From: Catenulispora sp. EB89
GTDB taxonomy: Bacteria > Actinomycetota > Actinomycetes > Streptomycetales > Catenulisporaceae
Direction of reading: 5' to 3'
Assembly: GCF_041261445.1 (NCBI RefSeq)
Contig: NZ_JBGCCU010000010.1
Location: 124,001-188,000, forward strand
DNA: 64,000 nt
Below, one piece after another: positions 49,631 through 64,000 of this stretch. A program made the translations under genes and the position numbers. Every line of letters starts with the position of its first letter. Position 1 is the stretch's first letter. Below the pieces are notes generated by a model. That model had not been told where the DNA came from. It made no database searches and saw only the letters and a program-made list of their open reading frames with translations.

Positions 49631-49664
49631 GCGGTGACCTGATCGTGAGCGGGTAGGGCCGATC

Positions 49665-49696
49665 GCCGGGCGGTACGGGTTTCCGTGCCGCCCGGC
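49665..49696. terminator. Strong bidirectional terminator after GH48
   Basis: GCCGGGCGG pairs with CCGCCCGGC and the stem continues with ACGG/CCGT around a short T-rich loop, about 14 bp in all, between two convergent genes. Confidence 0.7.
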
Positions 49697-49736
49697 GTGC
49701 TGCTTTCGTCAGCCGCGCGCCACTACCGGCGGGCAA

Positions 49737-50411: not shown

Positions 50412-50429
50412 GCCTCATCCTGGCACGGC

Positions 50430-50466
50430 TGGTACGGTGTACCAAACTTCTTGGTACGGTGTACCA
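50430..50466. promoter_or_regulatory. Two identical TetR operators
   Basis: TGGTACGGTGTACCA occurs at 50430-50444 and 50452-50466; each is a TGGTAC-N3-GTACCA palindrome. The 22-base period puts both dimers on the same DNA face. They lie between the divergent TetR and monooxygenase genes. Confidence 0.85.
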
Positions 50467-50519
50467 GTCATGAGGCGCCGGCCGCGGGTCGGACCGTCTC
50501 CGATCTGAGAGGAAGCACC

Positions 50520-51665
50520 ATGGCCACTTCCGTCACTCCCGTCACGATCGTCGGCGCCGGACTCGGCGGCCTCACCCTCGCCCGCGTTCTGCACGTCAAC
50601 GGCATCCCGGCCACGATCTACGAGGCCGAGCCCTCGGCCGCGGCCCGGACCCAGGGCGGGCAACTGGACATCCACGACTACAACGGGCAGCTGGCGCTCG
50701 CCGCGGCCGGCCTCACCGACGAGTTCCGGGCGATCATCCACGTCGGCGGCGAGGCCGCGCACGTCCTCGACCCGGACGGCACGGTGCTGCTCGACGAGCC
50801 CGACGACGGCAGCGGCGGCCGCCCCGAGGTGCTGCGCGGCGACCTGCGCCGGATCCTGCTCGACTCGCTGCCCGAGGGGACGATCCAGTGGGGACGCAAG
50901 GTCACCGGCGTGCGGTCCCTCGGCGACGGCCGGCACGAGCTGGCCTTCACCGACGGCACGACCGCCACCACCGAGCTCCTGGTCGGTGCCGACGGCGCCT
51001 GGTCGAAGATCCGCCCGCTGCTGTCCGACGCCGAGCCCGAATACGTCGGCATCTCCTTCATCGAGACCTACCTGCACGACGCCGACCGGCGCCACCCTGA
51101 GGCGGCGAAGGCGATGGGCGGCGGCGCCCTGTTCGCGCTGGCTCCGGGCAAGGGGATCCTCGGGCACCGGGAACCCGGCGGCGTGCTGCACACCTACGTC
51201 GCGCTGTCCGTGCCGCCGAGCTGGATCGAGGACATCAGCGCCGCCGATCCGGCCACGGTCACCGCGCGGGTCGCGGCGGAGTTCGCCGACTGGGCGCCGG
51301 GGCTCACCGCGTTGATCACCGAGGGGGACGAGGCCCCCGTTCTGCGCATGATCAACGCCCTGCCGATCGGCCACCGCTGGGACCGCGTCCCCGGCGTCAC
51401 CCTCGTCGGCGACGCGGCCCACCTGATGTCGCCGTTCGCCGGCGAAGGCGCCAACCTCGCGATGTTCGACGGCTCCGAACTCGCCCGGGCCATCGCCGCC
51501 CACCCCGGCGACGTCGAGGCGGCCCTGGCGCAGTACGAGCAGGACCTCTTCCCCCGCGCCGCCGAACTCGCCGCCGAATCCGCTCAGAACCACCGGCAGA
51601 TGTTCGGCGACGACACTCCCGACGGTCTGCTCAAGCTGCTCACCGGGCAGGAACCGCCGGCGTGA
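50520..51665 (+). CDS. FAD-dependent monooxygenase (TetX-like, PHBH fold)
   Basis: A 381-residue group A flavoprotein monooxygenase: dinucleotide motif VTIVGAGLGGLTLARVLHVNG, the middle DG motif region ELLVGADGAWSKIR and the FAD-ribose GD motif VTLVGDAAHLMSPFAGEGANLAMFDG. It hydroxylates aromatic or polyketide-like compounds with NAD(P)H and oxygen. Sequence style resembles TetX-type and related detoxifying enzymes, but the natural substrate is unknown. The ATG at 50520 follows GAGAGGAAG. It is controlled by the divergent TetR gene. Confidence 0.9.
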   Translation: MATSVTPVTIVGAGLGGLTLARVLHVNGIPATIYEAEPSAAARTQGGQLDIHDYNGQLALAAAGLTDEFRAIIHVGGEAAHVLDPDGTVLLDEPDDGSGGRPEVLRGDLRRILLDSLPEGTIQWGRKVTGVRSLGDGRHELAFTDGTTATTELLVGADGAWSKIRPLLSDAEPEYVGISFIETYLHDADRRHPEAAKAMGGGALFALAPGKGILGHREPGGVLHTYVALSVPPSWIEDISAADPATVTARVAAEFADWAPGLTALITEGDEAPVLRMINALPIGHRWDRVPGVTLVGDAAHLMSPFAGEGANLAMFDGSELARAIAAHPGDVEAALAQYEQDLFPRAAELAAESAQNHRQMFGDDTPDGLLKLLTGQEPPA

Positions 51666-51686
51666 GCCCGGGCGGCGGCCCTGGTG

Positions 51687-51709
51687 GGTACAGTTCACTA
51701 ACTAGTACC
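51687..51709. promoter_or_regulatory. Operator before the HxlR-type gene
   Basis: GGTAC-AGTT-CACT-AACT-A-GTACC is a nested inverted repeat 21 bases upstream of the GTG at 51731. It probably binds the HxlR-type protein itself, and its position argues against the upstream GTG at 51662. Confidence 0.55.
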
Positions 51710-51730
51710 GACCCGCAACCGGGAGATACC

Positions 51731-52195
51731 GTGACGAAAGACTCAGGGCCCGTCGTCTTCGAGCCCGGCCAGACCTTCCTCGCGGTCATCTCCGAGCGCT
51801 GGAACTATCAGATCCTGCGCGAGATCTTCTTCGGCACGACCCGGTTCGGGGAGATCAAGCGGACCCTCGGCATCTCGGCGAACATCCTGACCAGCCGGCT
51901 CACCGACCTCACGGCGGCCGGCCTGCTCAGCAAGCGGGCCTACCGGGAGGACAAGCCCTGGTTCGAGTACGAACTCACCGATGCCGCCCGCGAGCTGGTG
52001 GTGCCGGCGATCGTGGCGATCACCCGGTGGGCCGAGGTCCGCGCGCCCGGGGCGGATGGCAGCCACGCCCCGCACCGGCCGCTGCTGCACACCACCTGCG
52101 GCAACGAGACAGACCCCTACCTCGCCTGCAGCGCCTGCCATGAACCCATCGCCGCGTCGAACCTGGTCCCGGTCGTCACCGACAGCCTGAACTGA
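51731..52195 (+). CDS. HxlR-family winged-helix regulator with a C-terminal zinc-ribbon-like tail
   Basis: A 154-residue regulator: FLAVISERWNYQILREIFFGTTRFGEIKRTLGISANILTSRL in blocks is the HxlR DNA-binding domain. The C-terminal 45 residues contain TTCG followed by LACSACHEP, a C-x(n)-C-x2-C pattern that may bind a metal or act as a thiol sensor. GTG 51731 follows GGGAGATACC; a GTG overlapping the previous stop is possible but would put the operator inside the gene. Confidence 0.85.
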   Translation: MTKDSGPVVFEPGQTFLAVISERWNYQILREIFFGTTRFGEIKRTLGISANILTSRLTDLTAAGLLSKRAYREDKPWFEYELTDAARELVVPAIVAITRWAEVRAPGADGSHAPHRPLLHTTCGNETDPYLACSACHEPIAASNLVPVVTDSLN

Positions 52196-52211
52196 GCGGC
52201 TGAACGGTCGG

Positions 52212-52247
52212 CGCTTCGGACGCTTCGGGCGCTTCGGACGCTTCGGC
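52212..52247. repeat. Four tandem 9-bp repeats CGCTTCGGN
   Basis: CGCTTCGGA, CGCTTCGGG, CGCTTCGGA and CGCTTCGGC follow one another without gaps in the non-coding space after the HxlR gene. Each unit can form a CTTCGG-type tetraloop, but no larger stem is seen. The period is a multiple of three, yet no coding frame is credible. Confidence 0.7.
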
Positions 52248-52425
52248 TCAACGACCCGGGAGGCATCTCACCGTCGCGCATCGGGGTCGGTGTGGCTGTG
52301 ATCTCCACGAACGCGGGACCGGTCCACCTCGGCCACCTCCCACCGGGTCAGCTCCGGGTGGCGCATCGCAGAGTGCGCACGAGACGGTGGCCTCGGTGAC
52401 TCCCAGCGAACGAGAGTGATGCGAG

Positions 52426-53454
52426 ATGTCCGAGCAGAGTGCTGTGCCGAGCCCGCCGCCGACCGCTGTGATGATGCAGCTGCTGGGCGGTTTCCAGATC
52501 TCCCAGGCCCTGTACGCGATCGCGGATCTGGGCGTGCCGACGATCCTCGACGAGCAGGGTCCCACCACCGTGGCCGTGCTGGCCGAGCGCACGAACGCGA
52601 ACCCCGACGCCCTGCGCCGGGCCGTCCGCGCCCTGGCGACGGTCGGGGTGTTCACCACGGACGGCGAGACCGTGCACCTCACACCGCTCGGGGCCACCCT
52701 GTCGGAGAAGCACCCGCATTCACTGCACGGTCTCGCCCGGGCCGGGATCGAGTTCCACTACCTGCCGTTCAGCGAGTTGCGGCACACCCTGCGCACCGGC
52801 CAGCCCGCGGTCGAGAAGTACCACGGCATGCCCTACTTCGAGTGGCTCGCCGCCGACCCCGCCCGCGCGAGCCTGTTCAGCCAGGCCATGGCGACGTTGG
52901 GCGGCACCGCGCGCGCCGGCATGTTCGACGGCTACCGGCTCCCGCCCGGCCGAACGATCGCCGACATCGGCGGAGCCGACGGCAAGACGCTGGCCGACCT
53001 GCTCAGCCGGGACGACGATCCGACGCGCCGCGGCATCGTCCTCGACCGACCGGTGACGATCGAGGCCGCACGCTCCTCGGAGACAGCCGCCCGCCTCGGC
53101 GACCGCGTGGAGTTCGTCGCCGGCGACTTCTTCACCGCCGTACCGACGGCGGACATCTACATCCTCGGCTGGATCCTGCACGACTGGAGCGACGAAGACT
53201 GCCGACGCATCCTCGGCTCCATCGCCACCGCCGCCGAGCCGGGAACCAGAGTGCTGATCCTCGAAGGCCTGGTCCCCCCGGGAGACCAGCCCCACCCCAT
53301 CAAGTCCATGGACCTGACCATGCTCGGCATCCTCAGCGGCAAGGAGCGCACCGAGCAGGAGTACCGCGACCTGCTCGACAGCGCCGGTTTCACCCTCGAC
53401 CGAGCCGTGGCCACCCCCAGCCCGTACTCGATCCTCGAAGCCGGCCTGCGCTGA
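52426..53454 (+). CDS. O-methyltransferase, acetylserotonin/polyketide type
   Basis: A 342-residue class I SAM methyltransferase of the Methyltransf_2 family. The N-terminal winged-helix dimerisation domain (about residues 10-100) is followed by the SAM site IADIGGADGKTLADLL, YILGWILHDWSDEDCRRIL with the catalytic-type His-Asp pair, and ILEGLVPPGDQPHPIKSMDL. Relatives methylate hydroxyls of secondary metabolites. It stands alone between regulators, with only a weak purine-rich site before the ATG. Confidence 0.87.
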   Translation: MSEQSAVPSPPPTAVMMQLLGGFQISQALYAIADLGVPTILDEQGPTTVAVLAERTNANPDALRRAVRALATVGVFTTDGETVHLTPLGATLSEKHPHSLHGLARAGIEFHYLPFSELRHTLRTGQPAVEKYHGMPYFEWLAADPARASLFSQAMATLGGTARAGMFDGYRLPPGRTIADIGGADGKTLADLLSRDDDPTRRGIVLDRPVTIEAARSSETAARLGDRVEFVAGDFFTAVPTADIYILGWILHDWSDEDCRRILGSIATAAEPGTRVLILEGLVPPGDQPHPIKSMDLTMLGILSGKERTEQEYRDLLDSAGFTLDRAVATPSPYSILEAGLR

Positions 53455-53485
53455 GCACGCAAATCGTCGTGGTCAGTCGAAGAGA

Positions 53486-54262
53486 TCAGCCGAACAATCG
53501 CCGCTGTATCTCCCGCCGATAGTCCTCCAACGTCTTGTCCAGATGCACCCCCGCCGCCGCGGCCGCCGCCTCCGGGTCGCCGCGGCGGATCGCCTCGTAG
53601 ATCGCGGCGTGCTCGGTGATCGCCTCGGCGGCGTGGCTGCCGAGCGCGCCGTGCAGGCCGATGGTGCTGGACTGGCGTTGCAGGCGGCGGGCCTCGCGGA
53701 CCGCCGCGAGCAGGAACGGGTTGTGCGAGGCGGTGGCGATGCCGAGGTGGAACTCGTCGTCGCCGCGGTCGAACAGGGCGGTCTGGTCGGTCAGGTGGCC
53801 CTGTTCGCACAGCTGCGCCGCGGACTCGATGGCGCGGAGTTCGGCCGGGGTCGCCCGGGTCGCGGCCAGCTTGCTGGCTGCGGTCTCCTGGACCCGCCGG
53901 AACTCGAAGAGCATGTAGACGTGGTCCAGGTCGGTCGGCAGGAAGAAGCCGCCCCACCGGGAGGAGCCCAGCATGCCCTCGTCGTCGGCGACGTAGAGGC
54001 CGCGGCCCTTCTGGGCGCGGACCCGGCCGACGGCCGACAGGATCTTGATCGCCTCGCGGACCACGGTCCGGCTGGCGCCGAGGCGCTCGGCCAGCTCCTT
54101 CTCGGTCGGCATGCGGTCGCCCGGCTGGAGCCGTGATTCGGCGATCAGCTGCAGGATCTGTTCCGCGATCAGTTCATAGCCCGGACGGTAGGTGTCGGTC
54201 CGGGCCTCTTCCAGTTTTCCCGTGGACGCGCCGTCCTCCGCCAGGACGGGTGTGCCGTCCAC
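53486..54262 (-). CDS. GntR-family (FadR/FCD) regulator of the fucose-type locus
   Basis: A 258-residue regulator: GntR winged helix (YELIAEQILQLIAESRLQPG to EKELAERLGASRTVVREAI) and an FCD helical ligand domain with metal-binding histidine and aspartate positions (HLGIATASHNPFLLAAVREA). GTG 54262 is preferred because GAGGGAGG sits just before it; GTG 54277 is an alternative. It is divergent from a sugar importer operon, so it likely responds to a sugar acid or lactone of the same pathway. Confidence 0.88.
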   Translation of the reverse strand: MDGTPVLAEDGASTGKLEEARTDTYRPGYELIAEQILQLIAESRLQPGDRMPTEKELAERLGASRTVVREAIKILSAVGRVRAQKGRGLYVADDEGMLGSSRWGGFFLPTDLDHVYMLFEFRRVQETAASKLAATRATPAELRAIESAAQLCEQGHLTDQTALFDRGDDEFHLGIATASHNPFLLAAVREARRLQRQSSTIGLHGALGSHAAEAITEHAAIYEAIRRGDPEAAAAAAGVHLDKTLEDYRREIQRRLFG

Positions 54263-54282
54263 CGTGGCCTCCCTCACTGCTG

Positions 54283-54301
54283 CTTGGTATCAAGTGCCAA
54301 G
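54283..54301. promoter_or_regulatory. Inverted repeat before the GntR gene
   Basis: CTTGG-N9-CCAAG (CTTGGTATCAAGTGCCAAG) lies 20 to 40 bases upstream of the GntR start. It is a candidate site for autoregulation, although it is not the exact FadR-subfamily TNGTNNNACNA form. Confidence 0.4.
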
Positions 54302-54641
54302 GAGCATACATGTGGGTCTCGTTCGGGACTAGATGGATCCTACATATATGACGACCGACGGCGCTCAAACGGTGAGCAAGTCGGGCATAAGTCCGGTCCA
54401 GATGACGCGCGCGTAAAAGAATCTTGAAGAGATGCGCCCGGCCCCCTTGACGCACACCTCCCTGCGCAGCTGTTATGTGTGCCACAGGTCACCGCCTTAG
54501 GTGTGTTACCGGTAACCGGTCGGCAACATCGGCGCGGCGGCCCGAAACCGAGTCACGTCGACCCGATGAGTAGGACACATATCTCCATTTCCGGTCCGCC
54601 CAGTCGCAGCTCGGCGGTGCCCCAGTGCAGGGGAGTCGTTC
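54302..54641 (+). promoter_or_regulatory. Long leader/promoter region of the fucose-type importer
   Basis: About 340 bases without a gene. TTGACG (54447-54452) and TGTTAT (54471-54476), spaced 18, are a reasonable promoter, which would leave a leader of about 155 bases. A perfect palindrome GTTACCGGTAAC lies at 54505-54516, downstream of that promoter, in a roadblock position. No riboswitch fold was recognised. Confidence 0.45.
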
Positions 54642-55982
54642 ATGACAGTGAAATTCCGCGCCGCGCTCGTGGCGGTCGGAGCCGTGCTCGCGCTCGGTGC
54701 CGCCGCCTGCGGCGGCTCGAGCTCCGGGAAGGCCGGCACGGCCGGTAGCGGCGGCACCTTCAAGCCCGCCGCGCAGACCGGCGGCACGCTGACGGTCTGG
54801 GTCGACTCGACCCGACTGGCCGCCGCGCAGCTGTACCAGAAGCAACACCCCGAGGTGAAGATGGACATCGTCACCTACGACGGGGACGCCAACGGCTCCA
54901 ACTACCTCCAGACCAAGGTCTCGCTGTTCAACCGGACCGGTTCGGGCTGGCCGGACGTCGTCTTCAGCGCGGAGAACAACGAGGCCGCCTGGGCGGTCCC
55001 GGCCGGCTTCACCGCCCCGCTGAACAAGGGCCTGATCCCGCAGGCCACGCTGGACGGCTGGGCCACCAACGCCAACGCCCCGTGCACCGTGGACGGCACC
55101 GTCTACTGCCTGCGCAACGACCTGTCGCAGACCGTCCTCTGGTACAACGACAAGCTCATGAAGCAGTGGGGCTACCAGGTCCCCACGACCTGGGAGCAGT
55201 ACCAGGCACTCGGCCAGAAGGTCGCCACCGAGCACCCCGGCTACCTGGTCGGCGCCGCCGGCGACACCTTCACCCCCGAGGTCTACATGTGGGCCGGCAA
55301 GTGCGGCGCCAACCAGATCACCGGCGCCAAGGCCGTCACCGTCGACACCACCAGCGCGAACTGCACCAAGATGGCGGGGCTGCTCGACACGCTGATCCTG
55401 GACAAGACCATGTCGACCTCGAGCGTGTTCAGCTCGGACTTCGACAAGAACGAGGCCGACAAGATCCTGATGATGCCCGGCCCGTCGTGGTACGGCGGCG
55501 CGCTGTTCCAGGGCACCTTCAAGACCCCGGCCGGCCAGATCGGTGTCGCGCCGATGCCGCAGTGGGCCGGCGACTCCAGCCCCTCGGTGGGCAACGTCGG
55601 CGGCGGCACCTGGCTGGTCTCCGCGCACAGCAAGAACCTCAAGGCCGCGACCGACTTCCTGACCTGGGCCACGACCTCGGACGACTACCAGGGCAAGCTG
55701 GCCCCGGGCTACCCGGCCTACACGGCGGCGGCCAAGACCTGGCTGGCCGCGCAGTCGGCCTCCGGCTACTACGCCGACGACATCACCGCGCCGCTGACAG
55801 CCGCGGCCGACCAGGTGTGGACGGGCTGGGGCTACGGCCAGTTCAGCCAGGAGGCGATCTGGGCGGCCACGGTCACCCCGGGCGTCAACGCCGGCAAGAC
55901 CATCACCTCCCTGCTGCCGGCCTGGCACGACTCGATCGTGAACTACGCCAAGACCGACGGATACCAGGTGGCGTCGAAGTGA
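54642..55982 (+). CDS. ABC transporter sugar-binding lipoprotein (CUT1)
   Basis: A 446-residue family 1 solute-binding protein. Signal and lipobox LGAAAC lead to a Gly/Ser linker and the mature fold (TLTVWVDSTRLAAAQLYQ; VVFSAENNEAAWAVP; GAPMPQWAGD-like closing blocks). The ATG follows GGGGAG. It is the first gene of a run of four overlapping or closely spaced genes. Fucose or rhamnose, or their glycosides, are the likely ligands by context (mutarotase and GH29 further on); this is inferred. Confidence 0.9.
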   Translation: MTVKFRAALVAVGAVLALGAAACGGSSSGKAGTAGSGGTFKPAAQTGGTLTVWVDSTRLAAAQLYQKQHPEVKMDIVTYDGDANGSNYLQTKVSLFNRTGSGWPDVVFSAENNEAAWAVPAGFTAPLNKGLIPQATLDGWATNANAPCTVDGTVYCLRNDLSQTVLWYNDKLMKQWGYQVPTTWEQYQALGQKVATEHPGYLVGAAGDTFTPEVYMWAGKCGANQITGAKAVTVDTTSANCTKMAGLLDTLILDKTMSTSSVFSSDFDKNEADKILMMPGPSWYGGALFQGTFKTPAGQIGVAPMPQWAGDSSPSVGNVGGGTWLVSAHSKNLKAATDFLTWATTSDDYQGKLAPGYPAYTAAAKTWLAAQSASGYYADDITAPLTAAADQVWTGWGYGQFSQEAIWAATVTPGVNAGKTITSLLPAWHDSIVNYAKTDGYQVASK

Positions 55983-56896
55983 GCACGCCCTCCGCGACCA
56001 CCGGCCGGACCACAGCGCGGCGCGGCCTGCGCGCGCTGTGGCCCGGCCGGGCCGGCCACGGCTTCGTCGCCGCCTACGTGGTGCTGCTGATCGCCTTCGG
56101 CGTGGTGCCCACGGGCTACGCCGTGTACTTCGCCTTCACCGACGGGAACGCCCGCTTCACCGGTCTGTCGAACTTCTCCCGGGCCGCCTCCGACTTCCGC
56201 TTCGTCCCGGCCGTCGAGCACGTCGCGCTGTACCTGGTGTTCTGGCTGGCGTCGCTGGTGATCCTCGTCGTCGGCCTGTCCTTGCTGCTGCAAAGGATGT
56301 CCGCGCGCGGTGTGAGCAAGGCCCTGAGGTTCCTGTACTACATCCCGGGCGCGCTGGCCGGCGCGGCCGGCGTGATGGTGTGGCTGTTCGTGCTCGACCC
56401 CACGGTGAGCCCGGTGAGCTTCCTGCTCCGGGCGATGGGCTTCGACACCTTCGGCCAGGTCGTCGCCCCGGGCCAGCTGCCGGTCCTGTTCACCCTGATC
56501 GCGTTCTGGACCGGCGCGGGCGGGTGGATCGTGGTGATGCACGGCGCGCTCAACAACATCCCGCACGAGGTCATCGAGGCCGCGCGGATCGACGGCGCGA
56601 GCGCCTGGCAGACGGCGCGGCGCATCCAGATCCCGATGCTGCGCAAGTGGATCATCTACATGGTGATCCTGGCCTTCGCCGGGGGCACCCAGCTGTTCGT
56701 CGAACCGCAGCTGCTCGCGCAGGCCAGCGTCGGCGTCGCGGGCCGCGACTACTCGCTGAACCAGCTCTCCTACGACTTCGCCTTCCAGAACAACGACGTC
56801 AACACCGCCGCGGCCATCTCGGTCGAGCTCCTGCTCGTCGGCCTGGTCGTCGCCGCCGTGTTCGTCGCCAGATCGGGGTTCTTCGATGCCGACTGA
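55979..56896 (+). CDS. ABC sugar permease, MalF type
   Basis: A 305-residue permease starting at GTG 55979, overlapping the binding-protein stop as GTGA. Six membrane helices are predicted and the EAA loop is EVIEAARIDGASAWQTARRIQIPML. It pairs with the next permease, whose start lies 11 bases inside this gene. Confidence 0.9.
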   Translation: MSTPSATTGRTTARRGLRALWPGRAGHGFVAAYVVLLIAFGVVPTGYAVYFAFTDGNARFTGLSNFSRAASDFRFVPAVEHVALYLVFWLASLVILVVGLSLLLQRMSARGVSKALRFLYYIPGALAGAAGVMVWLFVLDPTVSPVSFLLRAMGFDTFGQVVAPGQLPVLFTLIAFWTGAGGWIVVMHGALNNIPHEVIEAARIDGASAWQTARRIQIPMLRKWIIYMVILAFAGGTQLFVEPQLLAQASVGVAGRDYSLNQLSYDFAFQNNDVNTAAAISVELLLVGLVVAAVFVARSGFFDAD

Positions 56897-57848
56897 GGGA
56901 CACCCCGGCGTGTCGACCTTCCGGACCCGGACCGAGACGGCCGCCCCGCGCGCCGGCTCCGGACCGCGCCGCAGTGCCGCCGCCCGCCGCCGCAAGCCGG
57001 GCAACCCGCTGCCCGCGCTGGTGCTCGGACTGTTCGTGGTCTTCTTCGTGCTGCCGGTGCTCTGGCTGGTGCTCGCGGCGACCAAGACCGACGACCAGCT
57101 CGTGCACGGCAACCCGCTGGCGTTCGGGTCCTGGCACGCGCTGCGCGCCAACTGGGACGCGCTGACGTCCTACCAGGGCGACGCCATGTTCCAGTGGCTG
57201 CGCAACTCCGCGCTCTACTCGTTCGCGGCGCTGGTGATCACCCTGGCCGTGGCGATCCCGGCCGGCTACGCGCTGGCCATGACCGAGTTCCGCGGCCGCC
57301 GCATGCTGCTGATCGCCACCCTCGTGGTGATGCTCATGCCGAACGCCACGCTGGTCGTGCCGCTGTTCCTGGAAGTCAACGCGGTACACCTGATCGGGTC
57401 GATGTGGTCGATCATCCTCCCGTACGCGTTCTATCCGTTCGGCGTGTATCTGGCCTACATCTACTTCAGCACCGCGCTTCCCAGGGAACTGCTGGAGGCC
57501 GCGCGACTGGACGGCTGCAGCGAGCTCGGCGTCTTCCGCCGGGTCGCGCTGCCGCTGGCCGCGCCGATCGTGGCGCTCGTCGGGTTCTTCAGCTTCGTGG
57601 CCAACTGGACCAACTACTTCCTGCCCTACGTCATGCTGCCGCAGAGCAACCAGCTCCCGGTCCAGGTGGGCCTGGGCACGCTGCTGGACGACGTGCCGCA
57701 GTTCAACCCGACCGTCGGCAGCCTGGCCGTGCAACGTCCGGAGCTCGCGCTGGCGACGCTGCTGGCGATCACCCCGGTGCTCATCGTGTTCCTGTTCTCC
57801 CAGCGCTTCCTGGTGACCGGCATGCTCGCCGGCGCCACCAAGAGCTGA
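56886..57848 (+). CDS. ABC sugar permease, MalG type
   Basis: A 320-residue permease with a Pro/Arg-rich cytoplasmic arm of about 40 residues, six membrane helices and the EAA loop ELLEAARLDGCSELGVFRRVALPLA. Its ATG overlaps the preceding gene by 11 bases. As in the arabinoside locus no ATPase gene is linked, so a shared MsiK-like ATPase is probable. Confidence 0.9.
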   Translation: MPTEGHPGVSTFRTRTETAAPRAGSGPRRSAAARRRKPGNPLPALVLGLFVVFFVLPVLWLVLAATKTDDQLVHGNPLAFGSWHALRANWDALTSYQGDAMFQWLRNSALYSFAALVITLAVAIPAGYALAMTEFRGRRMLLIATLVVMLMPNATLVVPLFLEVNAVHLIGSMWSIILPYAFYPFGVYLAYIYFSTALPRELLEAARLDGCSELGVFRRVALPLAAPIVALVGFFSFVANWTNYFLPYVMLPQSNQLPVQVGLGTLLDDVPQFNPTVGSLAVQRPELALATLLAITPVLIVFLFSQRFLVTGMLAGATKS

Positions 57849-57881
57849 ACATCCTGCAACGTCCAAACGGAGATACCTTTC

Positions 57882-59819
57882 ATGCATCCCGTCATCAAAG
57901 CCTCTGTCCCGGTGCTCGAGCCTCCCGGCTGGGCGCTGGCCGAGCGCGAGCTCTTCGATCTGCTGGACCGGTCGTGGCGGCGGTTCGCCGAGGACTTCAC
58001 CGGGCCCGGCGGCGAGCTCAGATACCACGGGACGCTTTCCACCCGCGACGGCGGCGACGACTTCTACGAGGTCTTCTTCAACTGGCCGCAGCTGTATCTG
58101 CTCGGCGGCGCCGACGACCTGCTGGCCGCCTCCGAGCGGCACTGGGAGGGCGTGACCCGCCAGCTCACGGAGCTCGGCATGCTGCGCGACGAGTACGAGC
58201 GCGGATACGACTGGTTCCACCAGGGCGAGAGCCTGCTCCTGTTCTACTTCCTGTGCATGGCCGACCCCGAGCGCTGGCGCGAGCGCGCGGTCCGCTTCGC
58301 AGAGCTCTACGTCGACTCGGTGCACCGCAACTACGACGCCGAACACCGCATCATCCGGCGCCCGCACAACGGCAGCGACCCGGACCGGGAAGGCCTGTTC
58401 GACGGCGAGTACTACCCGTGGCTGCCCAAGGAAGCCGAGATGTACGGCTTCCCCCTGAACTGGATCCTGCCGGCGGGCGCCGAAACCCCGCCGCTGGACC
58501 AGGATCCGCGTCTGGGCGAGCAGATGCGGCTGCGCACAGGGGTCGGCGACACCGCGGTCAACCTGGCGGCCACCAACCTCGCCCTCAACGCCCTGATCCT
58601 CACCGGTGAGGAGCGCTACCGGGACTGGATCGTCGAGTACGTCGGCGCCTGGCGCGAGCGGGCTGCCGCCAACGACGGCGTCATACCCGACAACGTCGCC
58701 CCGGACGGAACCGTCGGCGGCCTGCTGGAGGGCCGCTGGTACGGCGGCCACTACGGCTGGAACTGGCCGCACGGCTGGCACAGCGTGGGACCCGCCGCGG
58801 CGGTCGCGGCGCTGGCCGCGGCCACCGTCACCGGCGACGACTCCTACCTGGACCTGGTCGGCCCGGCGCTCGACGAGCTCATCGCGCGCGGCAAGACGAT
58901 GGCCTTCGCCGACGCGGACTCCAGCTTGCAGTCCAAGTGGACCATCCAGCTGCTCGACGACGTCCGGACCCCGACCTTCCACGTCCCGTACCGGCACGGC
59001 GACGAGGGCTGGTTCGACTACAACCCGATGCCGCTGGTCGTGCCCGCCGCGCTGTGGCACCACACCGCCTCCGACGCCGACCGCGAGCGCATCGAGCAGC
59101 TGCGCGAGGCCTCCGGCATCGACTGGAGCGTCATCCGGCCGTTCCGCAGCAAGGAGGAATCAGGGCACGAAGAGCCCTGGTTCGCCTTCCTGGCCGGCGA
59201 CGACCCCGGCTACCCCGAGCGCATCCTGGCCACCGCGCAGGCCCAGACGCGCCACCGCCTGACCCGCATGGAGCGCTACCGCGACCTGGACGTGCCCGAG
59301 GCCGACATCCACCTGTGGCAGCAGTCGAACCCGGTGGCCACCGAGGCCCTGGTCCAGCTCACCTGGGGCGGGCCGCAGGTGCTGTACAACGGCGGCCTCC
59401 AGCAGGCGCGCGTGCGCTACTACGACGCCGAATCGCGCCGCCCGGGCCTGCCGCCGTCGGTCGCGGCACTGGTGTCCAGCATCGATCCGCGCGCCACGGT
59501 CGTGGAGCTGGTGAACCTCGACCCGGAGCAGGCGCGCACGGTGATCGTGCAGGCTGGCCCGTTCGCGGAGCACACCATCGCCGCCGTCGAGTACACGGCC
59601 TGCGAGGACTCGTCGTGGATCGGCGACCTCTACGACTACGGACACCGGCCGCCGATCGAGACGTCGGAGTCGGCCGAGGTCGGCGGGCCGTGGCTCACCG
59701 TCGAGCTGCCGCGCTCCACGCGGGTGCGGCTGACGCTGCGCCTGGAGCTGCGTACGCGGCAGCCGTCCTACCGCACGCCATTCGACGCCGAGCCCGCGCG
59801 GACGGACGGCTCGGCGTGA
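57882..59819 (+). CDS. Unrecognised 645-residue protein of the fucose-type locus
   Basis: A large soluble protein with no signal peptide and no family I can name. It is rich in aromatic residues and repeated amphipathic helices (FYEVFFNWPQLYLLGGADDL; YDWFHQGESLLLFYFLCMAD; WYGGHYGWNWPHGWHSVGP), which suits an (alpha/alpha)6 toroid like six-hairpin glycosidases or lyases. HQGE, DGEYYPW and HYGWNWPHGWH are candidate active-site blocks. The last 130 residues look like a beta-sandwich. It is cotranscribed after the importer and before a mutarotase, so it may cleave the imported glycoside or uronate-linked sugar in the cytoplasm. Confidence 0.7.
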   Translation: MHPVIKASVPVLEPPGWALAERELFDLLDRSWRRFAEDFTGPGGELRYHGTLSTRDGGDDFYEVFFNWPQLYLLGGADDLLAASERHWEGVTRQLTELGMLRDEYERGYDWFHQGESLLLFYFLCMADPERWRERAVRFAELYVDSVHRNYDAEHRIIRRPHNGSDPDREGLFDGEYYPWLPKEAEMYGFPLNWILPAGAETPPLDQDPRLGEQMRLRTGVGDTAVNLAATNLALNALILTGEERYRDWIVEYVGAWRERAAANDGVIPDNVAPDGTVGGLLEGRWYGGHYGWNWPHGWHSVGPAAAVAALAAATVTGDDSYLDLVGPALDELIARGKTMAFADADSSLQSKWTIQLLDDVRTPTFHVPYRHGDEGWFDYNPMPLVVPAALWHHTASDADRERIEQLREASGIDWSVIRPFRSKEESGHEEPWFAFLAGDDPGYPERILATAQAQTRHRLTRMERYRDLDVPEADIHLWQQSNPVATEALVQLTWGGPQVLYNGGLQQARVRYYDAESRRPGLPPSVAALVSSIDPRATVVELVNLDPEQARTVIVQAGPFAEHTIAAVEYTACEDSSWIGDLYDYGHRPPIETSESAEVGGPWLTVELPRSTRVRLTLRLELRTRQPSYRTPFDAEPARTDGSA

Positions 59820-59968
59820 CCTCGGAGTATCAGAACCCTGTGGTTCTGGATTCGCGGCTTCACTTCTGGGACCCGCGCGGGAGCATCAGCTGCCCGAGCG
59901 TCGGACTCGTCGCCGCCTGCCCGCAGACGCGCCCCTTCGACAGGAAAGCCCTGACATGCAGCGCATAG
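59817..59968 (+). pseudogene. 5' remnant of an amidohydrolase (sugar lactonase type)
   Basis: Starting at GTG 59817, which overlaps the preceding stop as GTGA, the first 21 codons read VVLDSRLHFWDPR-like sequence: the metal-binding N-terminus (D-x-H-x-H/F-W-D-P) of amidohydrolase-2 enzymes such as L-fucono- and L-rhamnono-lactonases. After about 59880 the similarity is lost and the frame runs out at 59968, inside the mutarotase gene. A normal enzyme has about 280 residues, so most of the gene has been deleted. The second metal histidine position is already changed to arginine (DSRLHF). Confidence 0.6.
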
Positions 59969-60297
59969 CCCAAGTCGCCCGGCTGCGACCCGAGCTGCGC
60001 GAGGAATACCTCGCCCTGCACCGCGAAGTCTGGCCGGGTGTCGAGGCCGCACTGCGCGCGGCGCACATCCGCAAATACAGCATCTATCTCCACGGCGACC
60101 TGCTCTTCGCCTACTACGAGTACCACGGCGCGGACTTCGCCGCCGACCTGGAAGGGATCATCAAGGCCGATCCCGAGACGCAGCGGTGGTGGACCTTCAC
60201 CGACCCCTGCCAGGTCCCGTGGCCGGACTCCGCCGACGGCAGCCGCTGGTCGGACCTGCCGGAGATCTGGCATCTCAGCGACGAACCACGCGTGTGA
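59956..60297 (+). CDS. L-rhamnose/L-fucose mutarotase (RhaM family)
   Basis: A 113-residue DUF718/RhaM protein that interconverts alpha and beta anomers of 6-deoxy-L-sugars. Family marks are LRPELREEYLALHREVWPGV, the catalytic-pocket IRKYSIYLHGDLLFAYYEY and WWTFTDPCQVPWP near the C-terminus. The ATG is preceded by AGGAAAG. It supports the view that the locus handles L-fucose or L-rhamnose. Both flanks carry gene scars, while this gene is intact. Confidence 0.9.
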   Translation: MQRIAQVARLRPELREEYLALHREVWPGVEAALRAAHIRKYSIYLHGDLLFAYYEYHGADFAADLEGIIKADPETQRWWTFTDPCQVPWPDSADGSRWSDLPEIWHLSDEPRV

Positions 60298-60338
60298 CCG
60301 CTAACATCGCGCACAACCAGCAGTGGAACCTCGGCTGA
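60297..60338 (+). pseudogene. 3' remnant of a CBM13 (ricin-type) protein
   Basis: Immediately at the mutarotase stop, a short frame reads TANIAHNQQWNLG and stops (TGA 60336-60338). This is the standard end of a ricin-type CBM13, as in SNQQWTLG at the end of the esterase in this window. No start or upstream part exists, so it is the tail of a deleted secreted enzyme gene. Confidence 0.5.
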
Positions 60339-60362
60339 CCGTCCGCCGCACCAGACCTCTGT

Positions 60363-60393
60363 CCGGGGCCGTGACCGACGCCCCCGGCCCCGG
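60363..60393 (+). terminator. Terminator following the CBM13 remnant
   Basis: CCGGGGCCG pairs perfectly with CGGCCCCGG across a 13-base loop, 25 bases after the remnant's stop. It was probably the terminator of the lost gene and now separates the mutarotase from the dehydrogenase. Confidence 0.55.
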
Positions 60394-60464
60394 GCAGAGC
60401 CCGATTCCCGTCACCACCGACGGCACCGCGCCGTCTGCTCTCCGCAAAGAAGGACGCTGACACC

Positions 60465-61541
60465 ATGACGACGCCGCTGGCCGTGCGGTACACCGCCGCC
60501 CGCACCCTGACGACCGGCCCGGCCGAAACCGCGGCCCCGGGGCCCGGAGAGGTGGAACTCGCCCCCGCCTACGTCGGGATCTGCGGCATCGACCTGCACA
60601 TCTTCCACGGCGACATGGACGCGCGGGTCAAGACGCCGGCCGTCATCGGACACGAGATGTCCGGGCGGGTGCTCCGCGTCGGCCCCGGCGTCGCGGGCTT
60701 CGCGCCCGGCGATCCGGTCACGGTGATGCCGCTGCGCTGGGACGGCACCTGCCCGGCCTGCCTCCGCGGGCATCGGCACGTGTGCCAGAACCTTGATTTC
60801 CTCGGCATCGACTCGCCCGGCGCGCTGCAGCAGCGCTGGACCGTGCCCGCCTCGACGCTGGTCCGGCTGCCGGAGTCGCTGCCGCTGGACCGGGCGGCGC
60901 TGGTGGAGCCCACGGCCGTGGCCGTGCACGACGTCGCCCGCGCCGGCGTGCGCGACGGCGACCGGGTCGTCGTGGTCGGGGCCGGACCGGTCGGCGTGCT
61001 GATCGCCGTGGTGGCGCGGGCCGCCGGCGGCGACGTGCGGGTCGTGGAGCCGAACGCGCACCGTCGGCGGCTGGCCGAACGGCTGGGGCTGCGGACGTGG
61101 GACCCCAGCGCGGATTCCGCCGACGGCGCCGGCGATGGCGGCGGCGCCGTGCTTGAGCGCGTCCGCGAATGGACCGGGGACGCCGGCGCGGACGTCGCGT
61201 TCGAAGTCTCCGGCGCCGAGGCCGGCGTCCAGACCGCGGTGGACGTGCTCGCGGTGCGCGGCCGGCTGTGCCTGGTCGCCAGCCACCCCCGGCCCCGGCC
61301 GGTGAACCTGCACCGCTTCTTCTGGCGGGAACTGACGCTGATCGGCGCCCGGTTGTACGACCGCGAGGACTTCGAGACCGCCGTGCGCCTGGTCGCCGAG
61401 GGCACCGTCCCGGCCGAGCAGCTGATAAGCAGGGTCGTGCCACTCGCCGACGCGCTCGGCGCCTTCCAGTCGCTGGAAGCCGGCCACGACGTCAAGGTCC
61501 TGGTGGACTGCACCGACTCCTCTTCGGAAGGCCTGGCATGA
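60465..61541 (+). CDS. Zinc-dependent medium-chain dehydrogenase (sorbitol/threonine DH type)
   Basis: A 358-residue MDR enzyme. Catalytic zinc ligands are C in GICGIDLH, H-E in GHEMSG and E in VEPTAVAVHD; NAD binding uses VVVVGAGPVGVLIAVVARAAGG. The structural zinc lobe reads WDGTCPACLRGHRHVC: three cysteines, with the usual first one replaced by Asp, so that site may be weakened or lost. It starts at ATG 60465 (AAAGAAGGACG upstream) and overlaps the next fragment as ATGA. It likely oxidises a sugar or sugar-acid hydroxyl in the 6-deoxy-sugar pathway. Confidence 0.88.
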   Translation: MTTPLAVRYTAARTLTTGPAETAAPGPGEVELAPAYVGICGIDLHIFHGDMDARVKTPAVIGHEMSGRVLRVGPGVAGFAPGDPVTVMPLRWDGTCPACLRGHRHVCQNLDFLGIDSPGALQQRWTVPASTLVRLPESLPLDRAALVEPTAVAVHDVARAGVRDGDRVVVVGAGPVGVLIAVVARAAGGDVRVVEPNAHRRRLAERLGLRTWDPSADSADGAGDGGGAVLERVREWTGDAGADVAFEVSGAEAGVQTAVDVLAVRGRLCLVASHPRPRPVNLHRFFWRELTLIGARLYDREDFETAVRLVAEGTVPAEQLISRVVPLADALGAFQSLEAGHDVKVLVDCTDSSSEGLA

Positions 61542-61739
61542 GCACGAACCGATTCGACCTCACCGGGCGCCTGGCCGTCGTCGAGCGTCCGGTCGACATC
61601 CTGGTCAACAACGCCGGCACCATCGCGCGCACCCCCGCCGCTCGGCACTCAGGTCGCCCGGAATATCGAGCTGTACCGGGCGAGCGTTCCCGAAGCCCTG
61701 TGGTCCTCCTTACGGTCCCTGGGTCTGATCAGCGTTTAA
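61538..61739 (+). pseudogene. Fused remnants: SDR N-terminus (internally deleted) and aldo-keto reductase C-terminus
   Basis: ATG 61538 starts FDLTGRLAVV, the first strand of a KduD-like SDR, but the TGxxxGIG motif and about 60 further residues are missing and the frame jumps to ERPVDILVNNAGTIARTPAA, the SDR NNAG strand. At about 61638 it joins, in another frame, TQVARNIELYRASVPEALW and SSLRSLGLISV with stop TAA 61737-61739, the usual C-terminus of D-threo-aldose/L-fucose dehydrogenases. At least two deletions are needed. Both parent enzymes belong to oxidative 6-deoxy-hexose breakdown. Confidence 0.65.
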
Positions 61740-61778: not shown

Positions 61779-62558
61779 GTGTATACGACTCCCGAGCTGC
61801 CTGAGCTGCTCAAGCTGATCGACGACCGGTCCTCCGCCTTCCGCGCCGCGGTGCAGTCCGCGCCTGATCTCGAGGCGGAGGTCGCGGGCTGCCCCGGGTG
61901 GACGCTGATGGTCCTGGCGCGGCACCTGGGCGGCGTGCAGCGCCGGTGGGCCGCCATCGTCGCGGCCGGCCCGGCCGACGAGCCGCCGGCCGGGACCTGG
62001 CAGACGGCGGCCGAGTCGGCGCCGGAGGAGCGCGAGGCCCTGCTCGACTGGCTCGCCGAGTCGACCCGGCAGCTGGTCGACGCGCTGCGCGAGGCCGGTC
62101 CGGACCGGGGCTGCTGGACCTGGTGGGGCGACACCCAGTCGCCGGAGACCTCCGGCGCCGTCGCCCGGCACCAGGTGCAGGAGGCAGCGGTTCACACCTA
62201 CGACGCCCAGCTCGCGGCCGGTGTCGCGGAGCCGCCGGCGCTGCCGACGGAGGCGGCGATCGACGGCGTCGAGGAGTTCAACACCACCTGCGGCACCACC
62301 GAGACGCCCTGGCCGCACGAGCCCGCGACCCTCGATGTCCACGTCACCGAGGGCCACTCCTGGCGCCTCACGCTGTCCGCCGACGGCTCGAAGGTGCGCC
62401 AACTGTCGGACGCCGACGCGGGTTCGGAGGCGACCGCCTTCATCCGAGGCACGGCGAGCGACGTGGTCCTCGCGTGCTACGACCGGATCCCGATGGACCA
62501 GCTGGAGCTCGGCGGCGACGTGAGCGTTGTCGAACGGCTCCGCGCCTGGGATTTCTAG
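61779..62558 (+). CDS. Maleylpyruvate isomerase-family, mycothiol-dependent-type protein
   Basis: A 259-residue protein of the TIGR03083/MDMPI family, DinB-like four-helix bundle: PGWTLMVLARHLGGVQRRW supplies the first metal histidine and RHQVQEAAVHTYDAQLAAG the E-x3-H pair; a C-terminal SCP2-like domain ends LELGGDVSVVERL. Such enzymes use mycothiol as thiol cofactor, an actinobacterial trait. The GTG start has no ribosome binding site in front of it. The reaction is unknown. It separates the scarred operon from the convergent fucosidase. Confidence 0.85.
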   Translation: MYTTPELPELLKLIDDRSSAFRAAVQSAPDLEAEVAGCPGWTLMVLARHLGGVQRRWAAIVAAGPADEPPAGTWQTAAESAPEEREALLDWLAESTRQLVDALREAGPDRGCWTWWGDTQSPETSGAVARHQVQEAAVHTYDAQLAAGVAEPPALPTEAAIDGVEEFNTTCGTTETPWPHEPATLDVHVTEGHSWRLTLSADGSKVRQLSDADAGSEATAFIRGTASDVVLACYDRIPMDQLELGGDVSVVERLRAWDF

Positions 62559-62571
62559 CCGGGCACAGGTT

Positions 62572-64000
62572 CTATAGGGACGGGTCGAAGAACGGCCGGT
62601 CGTAGACCTCGAACAAGCGGATCGAGGCCCAGCACCCGGCGTCGAGGGCGGTGACCGTGACCCGGAGGTGGCGCGTGGTCGCGGCGAAGCCGACGGTCTG
62701 GACCTGCGCGGTACCGGCGGTCGCGGTCAGGTCGGCGAGGGTGGTCCAGGACGAGCCGTCGGTGGAGGCGCCGATCCGGTAGCTGTAGCGGTGGCCGTCG
62801 AATTCCCAGGCCAGGCGCGCCCCGGTGACGGGGGTGACGCTGCCGAGGTCGACGCTCAGCCAGTGGCCGGTGGCACCGTCGGCCGCGCACCAGCGGGTGG
62901 CGGTGTCGCCGTCGACGGCGTTGGCGGCGAGGTTGCCGTGCGCGGTTTCGATGCTGTCGGCGCTGGTCGCGCGGGTGCGGGCGATGTCGGTGGGGATGAC
63001 GGCTCGGTCCAGGACGATCGCGATGACGGTGTCATCCGGGTAGCGGGTGCGGTCGATGCCGGTGATCGTGGCCTGGTTTCCGGCGCCGGCGCTACCACCG
63101 GTGCCGATGCTGAGCTGGAGCGGCGCGTGCGAGACCACGTCGTAGGCCCGTACCGCGTGGGCGTCGCCGAGAGCAGGCGTGGTGAACGTGCTTCCGGAGT
63201 AGCCGGGTAGCAGGTGGACGTAGACGGTGTTCGTGCTGAAGGTGAAGCCGTACTGGCCGTCCACCGGGTCCCACGGTCCGCCGCGCGTGTTGTAGACCGC
63301 CTCCCCGTTGGCCTTCATGAACGTGCCGAGCTGCTGCATCAGCGCGGCCTGATTGGGCCCCAGGTGCTGCCGACGCTGAACGTCTTTCTGCACCAGGTGC
63401 CCGGACCGCAGCCGGCCGGTGGGCACCGCGCCGCCCTCGTCGACGTCGTAGTCGCCGATCCAGCCCGATCGCGGGGTGGCGGTCGCGGTCGGCTGGGACT
63501 GGCGCACCAAGCCGGTCAGTCCCAACGGCAGTCCGGTGCCGGTCTCCGTCGCGCCGTAGGCGGCGTCCACCGGCCAGCCGTTGCCGGAGTCCCGGTAGCG
63601 GCCCGGCTCCCAGAAGAACGAGGCGTCGGCGTCAGTGCCCTGCTCGGCCAGCCAGCCGCCGTCCCACCAGAAGTCGTCCAGCGCGCCGTACTGGGTGACC
63701 AGCTCCTTGACGCACTGGTACACCTCCTCCTTCATCAGCCGGGCGTTCTCGCGGTGCGCCGGGTCGGTGCCGGTGACGTCGTAGTAGCCGGGGTAGCGCC
63801 AGTTGATGGGGGAGTAGTAGAGGCCGACCCGCAGTCCTGCGGCGCGCACCGCGGCGACGTATTCCCTGACGAAATCGCGCTTCAGCGGTGCCTGTCCGGC
63901 GTTCCAGCTCAAGGGATAGCTGCTCGGCCACAGGGCGAAGCCGTCGTGGTGCCGGGCCGTCAGCACGGTGTAGCCGGCGCCGAGCTGCTGGGCCAGCCGG
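62572..64000 (-). CDS. GH29 alpha-L-fucosidase with F5/8 (discoidin) domain, 5' end cut by the window
   Basis: The last 476 residues of a GH29 fucosidase; the frame is open to the window edge. The barrel shows VLTARHHDGFALWPSSYPLSW, VGLYYSPINWRYPGY and the nucleophile aspartate in FWWDGGW. A beta-sandwich follows and an F5/8-type carbohydrate-binding domain (GDTATRWCAADGATGHWLSV) ends the protein. It removes terminal L-fucose from glycans; a signal peptide would lie outside the window. With the mutarotase and the importer it points to L-fucose as the locus substrate. It is convergent with the mycothiol-type gene. Confidence 0.9.
   Translation of the reverse strand, partial: RLAQQLGAGYTVLTARHHDGFALWPSSYPLSWNAGQAPLKRDFVREYVAAVRAAGLRVGLYYSPINWRYPGYYDVTGTDPAHRENARLMKEEVYQCVKELVTQYGALDDFWWDGGWLAEQGTDADASFFWEPGRYRDSGNGWPVDAAYGATETGTGLPLGLTGLVRQSQPTATATPRSGWIGDYDVDEGGAVPTGRLRSGHLVQKDVQRRQHLGPNQAALMQQLGTFMKANGEAVYNTRGGPWDPVDGQYGFTFSTNTVYVHLLPGYSGSTFTTPALGDAHAVRAYDVVSHAPLQLSIGTGGSAGAGNQATITGIDRTRYPDDTVIAIVLDRAVIPTDIARTRATSADSIETAHGNLAANAVDGDTATRWCAADGATGHWLSVDLGSVTPVTGARLAWEFDGHRYSYRIGASTDGSSWTTLADLTATAGTAQVQTVGFAATTRHLRVTVTALDAGCWASIRLFEVYDRPFFDPSL

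Follow-up and report, generated by a model that had tools for sequence, protein, structure and literature searches.

Gene remnants between intact genes at a sugar locus of Catenulispora sp. EB89 point to deletional decay of a longer catabolic operon

Gene order and remnants in EB89

The window, the whole stretch of 64,000 nucleotides that was analysed, covers positions 124,001 to 188,000 of contig NZ_JBGCCU010000010.1 in the assembly of the soil actinomycete EB89 (G000; 11.9 Mb, 100% complete), with a GC content of ~72% at the locus. The comparison took in C. rubra, two Catenulispora MAGs and further genomes of the genus that carry the locus (8 in total). The following features are found.

53486..54277, minus strand: GntR/FCD regulator, intact (Pfam FCD and GntR above cut-off; dN/dS 0.10 to C. 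rubra)
54642..55982, plus strand: ABC sugar-binding protein, intact (SBP_bac_1; dN/dS 0.28)
55979..56896, plus strand: ABC permease 1, frame intact (305-aa open frame; homologue in 72/80 GHx loci)
56886..57848, plus strand: ABC permease 2, intact (BPD_transp_1; dN/dS 0.24)
57882..59819, plus strand: GHx, a 645-aa putative alpha-toroid glycoside hydrolase, intact (dN/dS 0.14)
59816..59896, plus strand: stub 1, N-terminus of a lactonase-type amidohydrolase, ~27 codons (tblastn of the L025 protein, E 1.5e-6)
59956..60297, plus strand: RhaM-family mutarotase, intact (Pfam rhaM, E 4.9e-28; dN/dS 0.11)
60315..60338, plus strand: stub 2, final 7 codons and stop of a GH141-like/CBM13 protein (ending as in the L025 and C. 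rubra genes)
60355..60400, plus strand: conserved GC hairpin without a T-run, in the gap between the CBM13 stub and MDR (-32.6 kcal/mol, z -4.85)
60465..61541, plus strand: MDR zinc-dependent dehydrogenase, intact (ADH_N and ADH_zinc_N; dN/dS 0.14)
61538..61582, plus strand: stub 3a, SDR codons 1-15, the ATG overlapping the MDR stop (sequence comparison)
61583..61649, plus strand: stub 3b, SDR codons 86-108, the 210 bp before them having been deleted in frame (sequence comparison)
61650..61739, plus strand: stub 4, codons 294-322 and stop of an aldo-keto reductase (AKR), after a 1321-bp deletion and out of frame with stub 3 (sequence comparison)
61779..62558, plus strand: MDMPI_N gene (mycothiol-dependent maleylpyruvate isomerase-like), frame intact (Pfam; dN/dS 0.43)
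62572..64000, minus strand: GH29 alpha-L-fucosidase with F5/8C, eroded (121 bp deleted at 63356/63357, 33 bp near 63765-63770, ~184 bp more lost past the window)

GHx, RhaM and MDR are under purifying selection (dN/dS 0.11-0.14 against C. rubra). GHx and MDR are full length and stop-free in all eight Catenulispora genomes with the locus and RhaM in seven of them, the exception being C. pinisilvae (G008), with a premature internal stop at codon 75. In the case of GHx, no Pfam match above cut-off and no NCBIfam or PDB-sequence match was found. The AlphaFold2 model (pLDDT 60.6, pTM 0.68) is of modest confidence and gave no Foldseek match in the PDB at E<=0.001; the best ones were GH127, GH76 and GH88-like, and GHx can be called no more than a probable alpha-toroid hydrolase.

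All four gene stubs named in the preliminary description are present among the intact genes, and the comparison with C. rubra and the Catenulispora MAGs shows them to be remains of longer genes. The amidohydrolase stub, with a GTG at 59816 overlapping the GHx stop, is indeed of the lactonase type, but ~27 codons rather than 21 match the full-length L025 gene. The CBM13 stub keeps the last 7 codons and the stop, ending in the same way as the 803-aa GH141-like/CBM13 protein of L025; what had been called its terminator is a strong GC hairpin, not picked up by a scan for T-run terminators. This hairpin beside MDR also occurs in L025 and C. rubra (L022); as it is found next to whole genes too, it was not produced by the deletions. 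The SDR has, as proposed, lost its cofactor motif, since codons 16-85 (TGARRGIG included) are gone in frame, and the AKR C-terminus was likewise correctly recognised.

Set against C. rubra, the CBM13 (60313/60314), SDR and AKR stubs and the 121-bp deletion in GH29 all show sharp breakpoints, which excludes chance for these four. The amidohydrolase junction cannot be placed in this comparison, because C. rubra has lost that N-terminus. Direct repeats were also sought at five junctions. The SDR junction has 8 bp in register (reached in 0.6% of random placements, uncorrected) and the CBM13 junction 5 bp (5.3%), while the values for SDR-AKR, GH29-121 and GH29-33 are 87, 43 and 29%, respectively. 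With an in-register repeat beyond chance at one junction out of five, repeat-mediated deletion was not adopted as a general mechanism.

The GH29 gene, listed earlier among those that remain, is itself damaged. Its losses (121 and 33 bp in the window, ~184 bp just past it) had escaped the preliminary description, and the Pfam profile is matched over positions 25-217 of 345, against 25-345 in C. rubra, so that the barrel is incomplete. A compensating 1-bp insertion keeps the frame, which is odd under free drift; one chance in three would suffice for it.

Counterparts in relatives and elsewhere in the genome

At the corresponding position, relatives carry full-length homologues of the stubs and not merely the same short frames. 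The same gene order is present at full length in L025 and, over two contigs, in genome G003. SDR and AKR are whole in C. rubra, G003, G004, G005 (AKR up to the contig end) and G006, and the amidohydrolase and the GH141-like protein are whole in G003 and G005. The stubs are thus very probably dead gene fragments left from a longer catabolic operon, once whole and broken up by deletions whatever the driver, which comprised the regulator, the ABC importer, GHx, lactonase, RhaM, the GH141-like/CBM13 protein, MDR, a KduD-type SDR, an Eda aldolase, a PfkB kinase and AKR. This complete ancestor is a composite, as the G005 contig ends in AKR and G003 is a two-contig MAG grouping with Streptacidiphilus. 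Among the eight Catenulispora genomes with the locus the kinase is found in one and the aldolase in two, both being missing from C. rubra; a gain of either gene in G003 or G005 fits these absences equally well.

The serial deletions were taken to be recent, and those of SDR and AKR do postdate the split from C. rubra, which keeps both genes whole. The locus tree pairs EB89 with C. rubra (support 0.974 for protein, 1.000 for nucleotide sequences), so the losses in EB89, G007 and G008 are separate. Their remnants differ as well: G007 keeps AKR codons 1-45, and G008 keeps SDR codons 1-15 and AKR codons 123-156. Within Catenulispora this makes at least three losses of AKR and two of SDR. The lactonase pieces left in EB89 and C. 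rubra do not overlap, which implies that each deleted this gene on its own. Outside the genus, among 80 loci picked by GHx, partial copies number 8 for MDR, 4 for SDR and 6 for AKR (an AKR fragment of four short matches in L048 and a partial MDR near a contig end in L078 are included), against none for RhaM, SBP and GntR, 1 for permease 1 and 2 for permease 2.

The pathway had been described as one of fucose/rhamnose oxidation, which the fuller clusters do not support, as they hold the KduD-type SDR, the Eda aldolase and the PfkB kinase. The latter three adjoin one another in G003. For all three SDR proteins compared the best NCBIfam match is TIGR01832 (KduD), at 336.9 bits in C. rubra, 338.2 in G003 and 332.3 in L099, each just below the cut-off of 338.85. 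The L025 lactonase reaches 151.7 bits with the L-fucono-1,5-lactonase model, far under its cut-off of 400.

The make-up of an L-fucose/L-rhamnose route, as far as sequence similarity indicates, is met instead on contig C4 of EB89 (571-577 kb), where AKR, SDR, an enolase-type dehydratase, an FAH hydrolase and LutB lie together; sugar oxidation need not be lost. All these enzymes except LutB score under the curated NCBIfam cut-offs, so that redundancy with the decayed module is putative. Searched with tblastn, 11 stretches holding the cluster (those of L025, L112 and L131 bounded by contig ends) gave no match to the dehydratase or the hydrolase at E<=1e-5.

The suggestion that the missing step moved elsewhere holds in a weak sense, for the C4 locus and for a second GH141-like/CBM13 gene; the KduD-type SDR is without a close replacement. 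The best other AKR in the assembly reaches 55% and the best other amidohydrolase 34%, and no match to the SDR body at E<=1e-40 was found among 150 scored of 206 candidates. The GH141-like/CBM13 protein has a full-length homologue (73%) at C10:240867-243230, and the genome contains many CBM13 domains (80 matches). The CBM13 body has therefore not just disappeared, and of all the junctions this one is most open to misassembly. A replacement on contig C8 was considered, where there is a second RhaM-like match (C8:407714, 38%) and where an AKR (C8:389451, 49%) follows importer genes, but the genes called in 375-420 kb, set against the reference proteins, include no similar oxidation cluster.

Course of decay and alternative explanations

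The locus is best read as a redundant module that deletions have taken apart step by step, with its ends protected by adjoining genes on which selection still acts. The lower steps were probably being lost from the module earlier, given that C. rubra and most of the genus lack both the kinase and the aldolase. With these gone, and with the C4 locus and the second GH141-like gene present in the genome, selection on the oxidising genes would have been relaxed. The comparison of assembled sequences shows at least four separate deletions after the split from C. rubra, in which lactonase, the CBM13 protein and SDR lost their bodies and the SDR-AKR junction was removed; further deletions struck GH29. 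Random deletions would then remove the unprotected gene interiors. Gene ends may last longest owing to neighbours under purifying selection, as they overlap or abut selected genes: the starts of lactonase and SDR lie in the stops of GHx and MDR, respectively, and AKR ends beside the gene that follows.

The same pattern could arise if the genes were intact in the strain and at least five stretches of GC-rich DNA had collapsed in the assembly. The ~72% GC content and the repetition of CBM13 domains across the genome are in line with this, as is the shorter length of EB89 relative to C. rubra at 6.1-18.6 kb of the window (compared with G001:C194; ~3.3 kb in sum, two whole genes missing). Of the four stretches compared in length with C. 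rubra, however, EB89 is longer in two (13.2 kb on C4 and 14.7 kb on C8) and shorter in one, the fourth containing the decayed locus. The AKR and SDR bodies were not found elsewhere in the assembly (for SDR, among the 150 scored of 206 candidates), and the same genes are absent or eroded in independently sequenced species, single-contig G004 included, the remaining pieces having other breakpoints. Such an artefact is therefore improbable. It is very improbable that the ancestor was already broken and that C. rubra re-acquired SDR and AKR horizontally. The left SDR breakpoint (after codon 15) is common to EB89 and G008, but the right sides are unlike (the EB89 sequence continues from codon 86, that of G008, as read by eye, from about codon 108 and codon 245 and then from AKR codon 123), and the divergence between C. 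rubra and G004 is ordinary (dS of 0.29 for SDR and 0.35 for AKR, 0.31 for GHx). A function of the stubs as leader peptides, regulatory RNA or in translational coupling would agree with their starts and stops overlapping intact neighbours and with the strong conserved hairpin beside MDR; it is scarcely credible, as different AKR pieces are kept (the N-terminus in G007, the middle in G008, the C-terminus in EB89) and the hairpin accompanies whole genes as well.

A further alternative concerns the driver and overlaps with stepwise decay: the MDR-SDR-AKR module, with lactonase, aldolase and kinase, beside the importer and the unclassified hydrolase, would have been removed repeatedly by different deletions across actinobacterial genera because its loss was favoured, for example by a toxic or wasteful intermediate once the kinase and aldolase were gone, while the importer, GHx and MDR, mostly with RhaM, were re-wired to feed another aldose route. 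The repeated independent erosion in the genus and the partial MDR, SDR and AKR copies elsewhere, set against the 0-2 of the five neighbours, speak for it, as does the purging of Salmonella pseudogenes faster than neutrally expected, as reported in one study (PMC2916853). Neutral decay after redundancy would nevertheless yield the same pattern. Moreover, MDR decays in other genera and the G008 RhaM has a stop, so that no remnant is universally protected beyond GHx, itself the criterion by which the loci were picked. Both for the favoured removal and for the re-wiring that goes with it, the odds are rather low, though not negligible.

Relation to known systems

The genus offers a natural series of intermediate operon states (nearly whole, aldolase gone, lactonase eroded, AKR and SDR eroded). 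As close relatives polarise the later steps, the order of pathway dismantling, the protection of gene ends by neighbours, and redundancy versus cost as the driver can be asked about. For annotation, RhaM, MDR and a sugar importer together do not amount to a working local oxidation pathway. Stepwise deletional decay looks like a known process, with the recurrence as the striking part; pseudogene attrition and deletional bias in bacteria are reportedly the subject of Mira et al. (2001) and Kuo and Ochman (2009). Among the matches listed, judged by title and start of abstract, no paper describes the decay of such an operon in Catenulispora or Streptomyces.

KduD, 2-keto-3-deoxygluconate kinase and Eda form a known pathway, which the neighbouring KduD-like SDR, Eda aldolase and PfkB kinase of G003 resemble; the cluster described here differs in coupling it with AKR, lactonase, RhaM and MDR. 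The non-phosphorylative Route III of L-fucose and L-rhamnose includes a lactonase step. For this route an L-fucose/D-arabinose dehydrogenase of the AKR type and keto-deoxy-acid dehydrogenases of the SDR type have been described (PMC6336799), and its make-up is matched by the separate C4 locus and not by the decayed cluster, whose relatives carry the KduD-type SDR, aldolase and kinase without the dehydratase and hydrolase in the 11 stretches. The decay itself is like the attrition of bacterial pseudogenes under deletional bias, in which unselected genes are inactivated and removed largely by deletions (PMC2916853). Unlike what is described there, EB89 keeps operon members in between the remnants, and one and the same module is decaying separately in different lineages.

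Gene content and deletion junctions

The assembly of Catenulispora sp. EB89 comprises 11.9 Mb in 70 contigs and is rated 100% complete; the window is positions 124001–188000 of its contig C10. The closest named match to the window is Catenulispora rubra, with 93% DNA identity over 53149–59840 and a GHx (a 645-aa putative glycoside hydrolase) of 97% protein identity. The locus is arranged as follows.

Upstream of the importer, minus: GntR regulator
54642–57848, plus: ABC importer
57882–59819, plus: GHx
Between GHx and RhaM, plus: amidohydrolase (lactonase-type) stub
59956–60297, plus: RhaM (mutarotase)
Between RhaM and MDR, plus: CBM13 stub, then a hairpin
60465–61541, plus: MDR (zinc-dependent dehydrogenase)
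After MDR, plus: SDR stub
Ending at 61739, plus: aldo-keto reductase (AKR) stub
After the AKR stub, plus: MDMPI_N gene
After MDMPI_N, minus: GH29

Separate deletions have removed the bodies of the AKR, SDR and lactonase genes, the neighbouring genes are conserved, and the losses are repeated among relatives. The serial deletion stubs between intact genes proposed in the preliminary description are correct, and better supported than could be known from the window. With respect to C. rubra, the CBM13 gene has lost 851 bp (break 60313/60314) and the SDR 210 bp in frame (codons 16–85, break 61581/61582), while 1321 bp are missing from SDR to AKR (break 61649/61650). GH29, said to remain, is not intact, having lost 121 bp (break 63356/63357), 33 bp near 63765–63770 and ~184 bp at 64246–64251. 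About 27 N-terminal codons of the amidohydrolase are left by comparison with L025 (the locus of a Catenulispora MAG), and this junction has no placement against C. rubra. An in-register repeat beyond chance is found at one of the five junctions tested. An alpha/beta-hydrolase gene at 66.2–66.4 kb (L103 6204–6444; C. rubra counterpart L106:4407–5345) lacks 100, 22 and ~560 bp and persists as remnants only, so the decay zone extends beyond the window end. On the other side of the locus, ~3.4 kb (49643–53148) have no counterpart at this place in C. rubra; the frames there, judged by eye, are FAD-dependent oxygenase-, HxlR- and methyltransferase-like.

At the equivalent site, L025 encodes, in order, GHx, amidohydrolase (290 aa, Amidohydro_2), RhaM, a CBM13-bearing protein (803 aa, with a sub-threshold GH141 match), MDR, KduD-like SDR, Eda aldolase and AKR, on a contig that begins with GHx and ends within AKR. 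Another MAG, G003, has this set split over two contigs, with a PfkB kinase inserted after the aldolase and before the AKR; its contigs C384 and C237 give two copies of the segment of the module made up of SDR, aldolase and kinase. In C. rubra SDR and AKR are whole and the aldolase is absent, the CBM13 gene is internally deleted (codons 1–160 and 639–803 of the L025 protein left), and the lactonase is reduced to pieces 118–166 and 193–290.

Recurrence of the losses

Genes in the eight Catenulispora genomes having the locus
Amidohydrolase: complete in 2, fragmentary in 3, undetected in 3
GH141-like/CBM13: complete in 2, fragmentary in 2, 7-codon end in 1 (the window; visible by DNA alignment only), undetected in 3
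SDR: complete in 6, fragmentary in 2
AKR: complete in 5 (in one as far as its contig runs), fragmentary in 3
Aldolase: complete in 2, absent from 6
Kinase: present in 1, absent from 7 (nothing at E<=1e-30)

The AKR pieces differ (294–322 in EB89, 1–45 in the relative G007, 123–156 in C. pinisilvae), and the SDR left breakpoint, after codon 15, is common to EB89 and C. pinisilvae, with different right sides. The AKR paralogue at a separate locus on contig C4 served as control: a near full-length counterpart occurs in 10/10 genus genomes, with an internal TGA in one (G003).

Genes at the best 80 of 306 stretches of species genomes encoding a GHx relative (presence limit 75% coverage; control genes belong to the same retained set)
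MDR: present 28, partial 8, contig end 4, absent 40
SDR: present 26, partial 4, contig end 1, absent 49
Aldolase: present 12, partial 1, contig end 0, absent 67
AKR: present 19, partial 6, contig end 0, absent 55
RhaM (control): present 52 (one with a stop), partial 0
Sugar-binding protein (control): present 72 (one frameshifted), partial 0
GntR (control): present 71 (one frameshifted), partial 0
Permease 1 (control): present 72, partial 1
Permease 2 (control): present 72, partial 2

Six of the 80 loci carry a Catenulispora or Catenulisporales name, a few genomes contribute two loci, and the six partial AKR copies include that of C. pinisilvae, already in the genus count. GHx is no control because the loci were picked by it. 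As a measure of scale, PMC3035231 gives 142 pseudogenes besides 9,122 genes in the C. acidiphila annotation. Stubs of MDR, SDR or AKR of the same type are seen in Kitasatospora and Streptomyces (L089 14271–14701, L061 13250–13790, L074 13161–13780), and at a second GHx locus of a Catenulisporales MAG (L060) both permeases are short remnants and GHx is whole.

Assembly, timing and constraint

Wrong assembly could mimic such stubs, and EB89 is shorter than C. rubra by ~3.3 kb in sum, two whole genes included, on the stretch matching its contig G001:C194 (window 6.1–18.6 kb). On C4 (13.2 kb) and on C8 (14.7 kb) EB89 is the longer of the two; gene gain and loss therefore go both ways and an artefact is unlikely, and the AKR, SDR (150 of 206 candidates scored) and amidohydrolase bodies are not found elsewhere in EB89.

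The SDR and AKR losses are dated by sequence comparison after the split from C. rubra, since both genes are whole there and the locus tree joins it with EB89 (support 0.974 protein, 1.000 nucleotide); the synonymous distance is 0.11–0.17 over the six intact genes measured. Twelve of the 67 surviving SDR and AKR codons differ from C. rubra (9 synonymous, 3 nonsynonymous), a faint hint of recent loss, because some of the differences arose in the lineage of C. rubra, which still has both genes entire.

The dN/dS values against C. rubra are 0.10 for GntR, 0.11 for RhaM, 0.14 for MDR and GHx, 0.24 for permease 2 and GH29, 0.28 for the sugar-binding protein and 0.43 for MDMPI_N. In 8/8 Catenulispora genomes having the locus, GHx and MDR keep their full length and contain no stops, as does RhaM in 7/8; in C. 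pinisilvae a premature stop at codon 75, present in both records (L110; L023 10272–10640), shows that decay there reaches a gene kept by the other seven. A GHx match is absent in two (G002, G009) of the ten genus genomes searched. This conserved protein has no Pfam match above cut-off, no NCBIfam match and no PDB-sequence match; its structure, modelled with low confidence, points to an alpha-toroid hydrolase that also carries a beta-sandwich and may belong to an unclassified glycoside hydrolase family.

A possible sugar-oxidation route elsewhere and the proposed course of decay

LutB and a LutA-like protein (LutAB have a role in the use of lactate) are encoded at C4, 571–577 kb, with an AKR (55% to that of C. 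rubra), an SDR, a dehydratase of the enolase superfamily and a hydrolase of the FAH family; this hydrolase scores best against the model for 2,4-didehydro-3-deoxy-L-rhamnonate hydrolase (307 bits vs cut-off 500). By its make-up the locus would be an L-fucose/L-rhamnose-type route, a qualified reading because only LutB is above its NCBIfam cut-off and all other enzymes are below curated cut-offs. PMC6336799 describes such enzymes as able to take L-fucose/L-rhamnose to pyruvate and lactate. Import and trimming of the sugar without oxidation, as first suggested, is therefore unlikely, and the fucose/rhamnose label holds in part: the cluster SDR is KduD-like, and the route-type enzyme set lies at C4.

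The KduD-type SDR has no counterpart in EB89 at E<=1e-40 (150 of 206 candidates scored), nor the kinase at 1e-30; aldolase-family genes are present (37% and 46%). A homologue of the GH141-like/CBM13 protein, of full length and 73% identity, is encoded at C10:240867–243230, ~53 kb past the window, within a region (C10:167378–278068) of many CBM13-bearing frames.

Selection may have relaxed after the lower steps were lost, and the C4 locus and second GH141-like gene may also have relaxed it. The gene ends would survive through overlap with, or direct contact to, genes that selection maintains; three overlaps are visible (amidohydrolase GTG inside the GHx stop, SDR ATG inside the MDR stop and, in G007, the AKR start inside the stop of the intact SDR). 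The decay process itself is already known; the recurrence of loss is the unusual part, and it is open to testing for selection.
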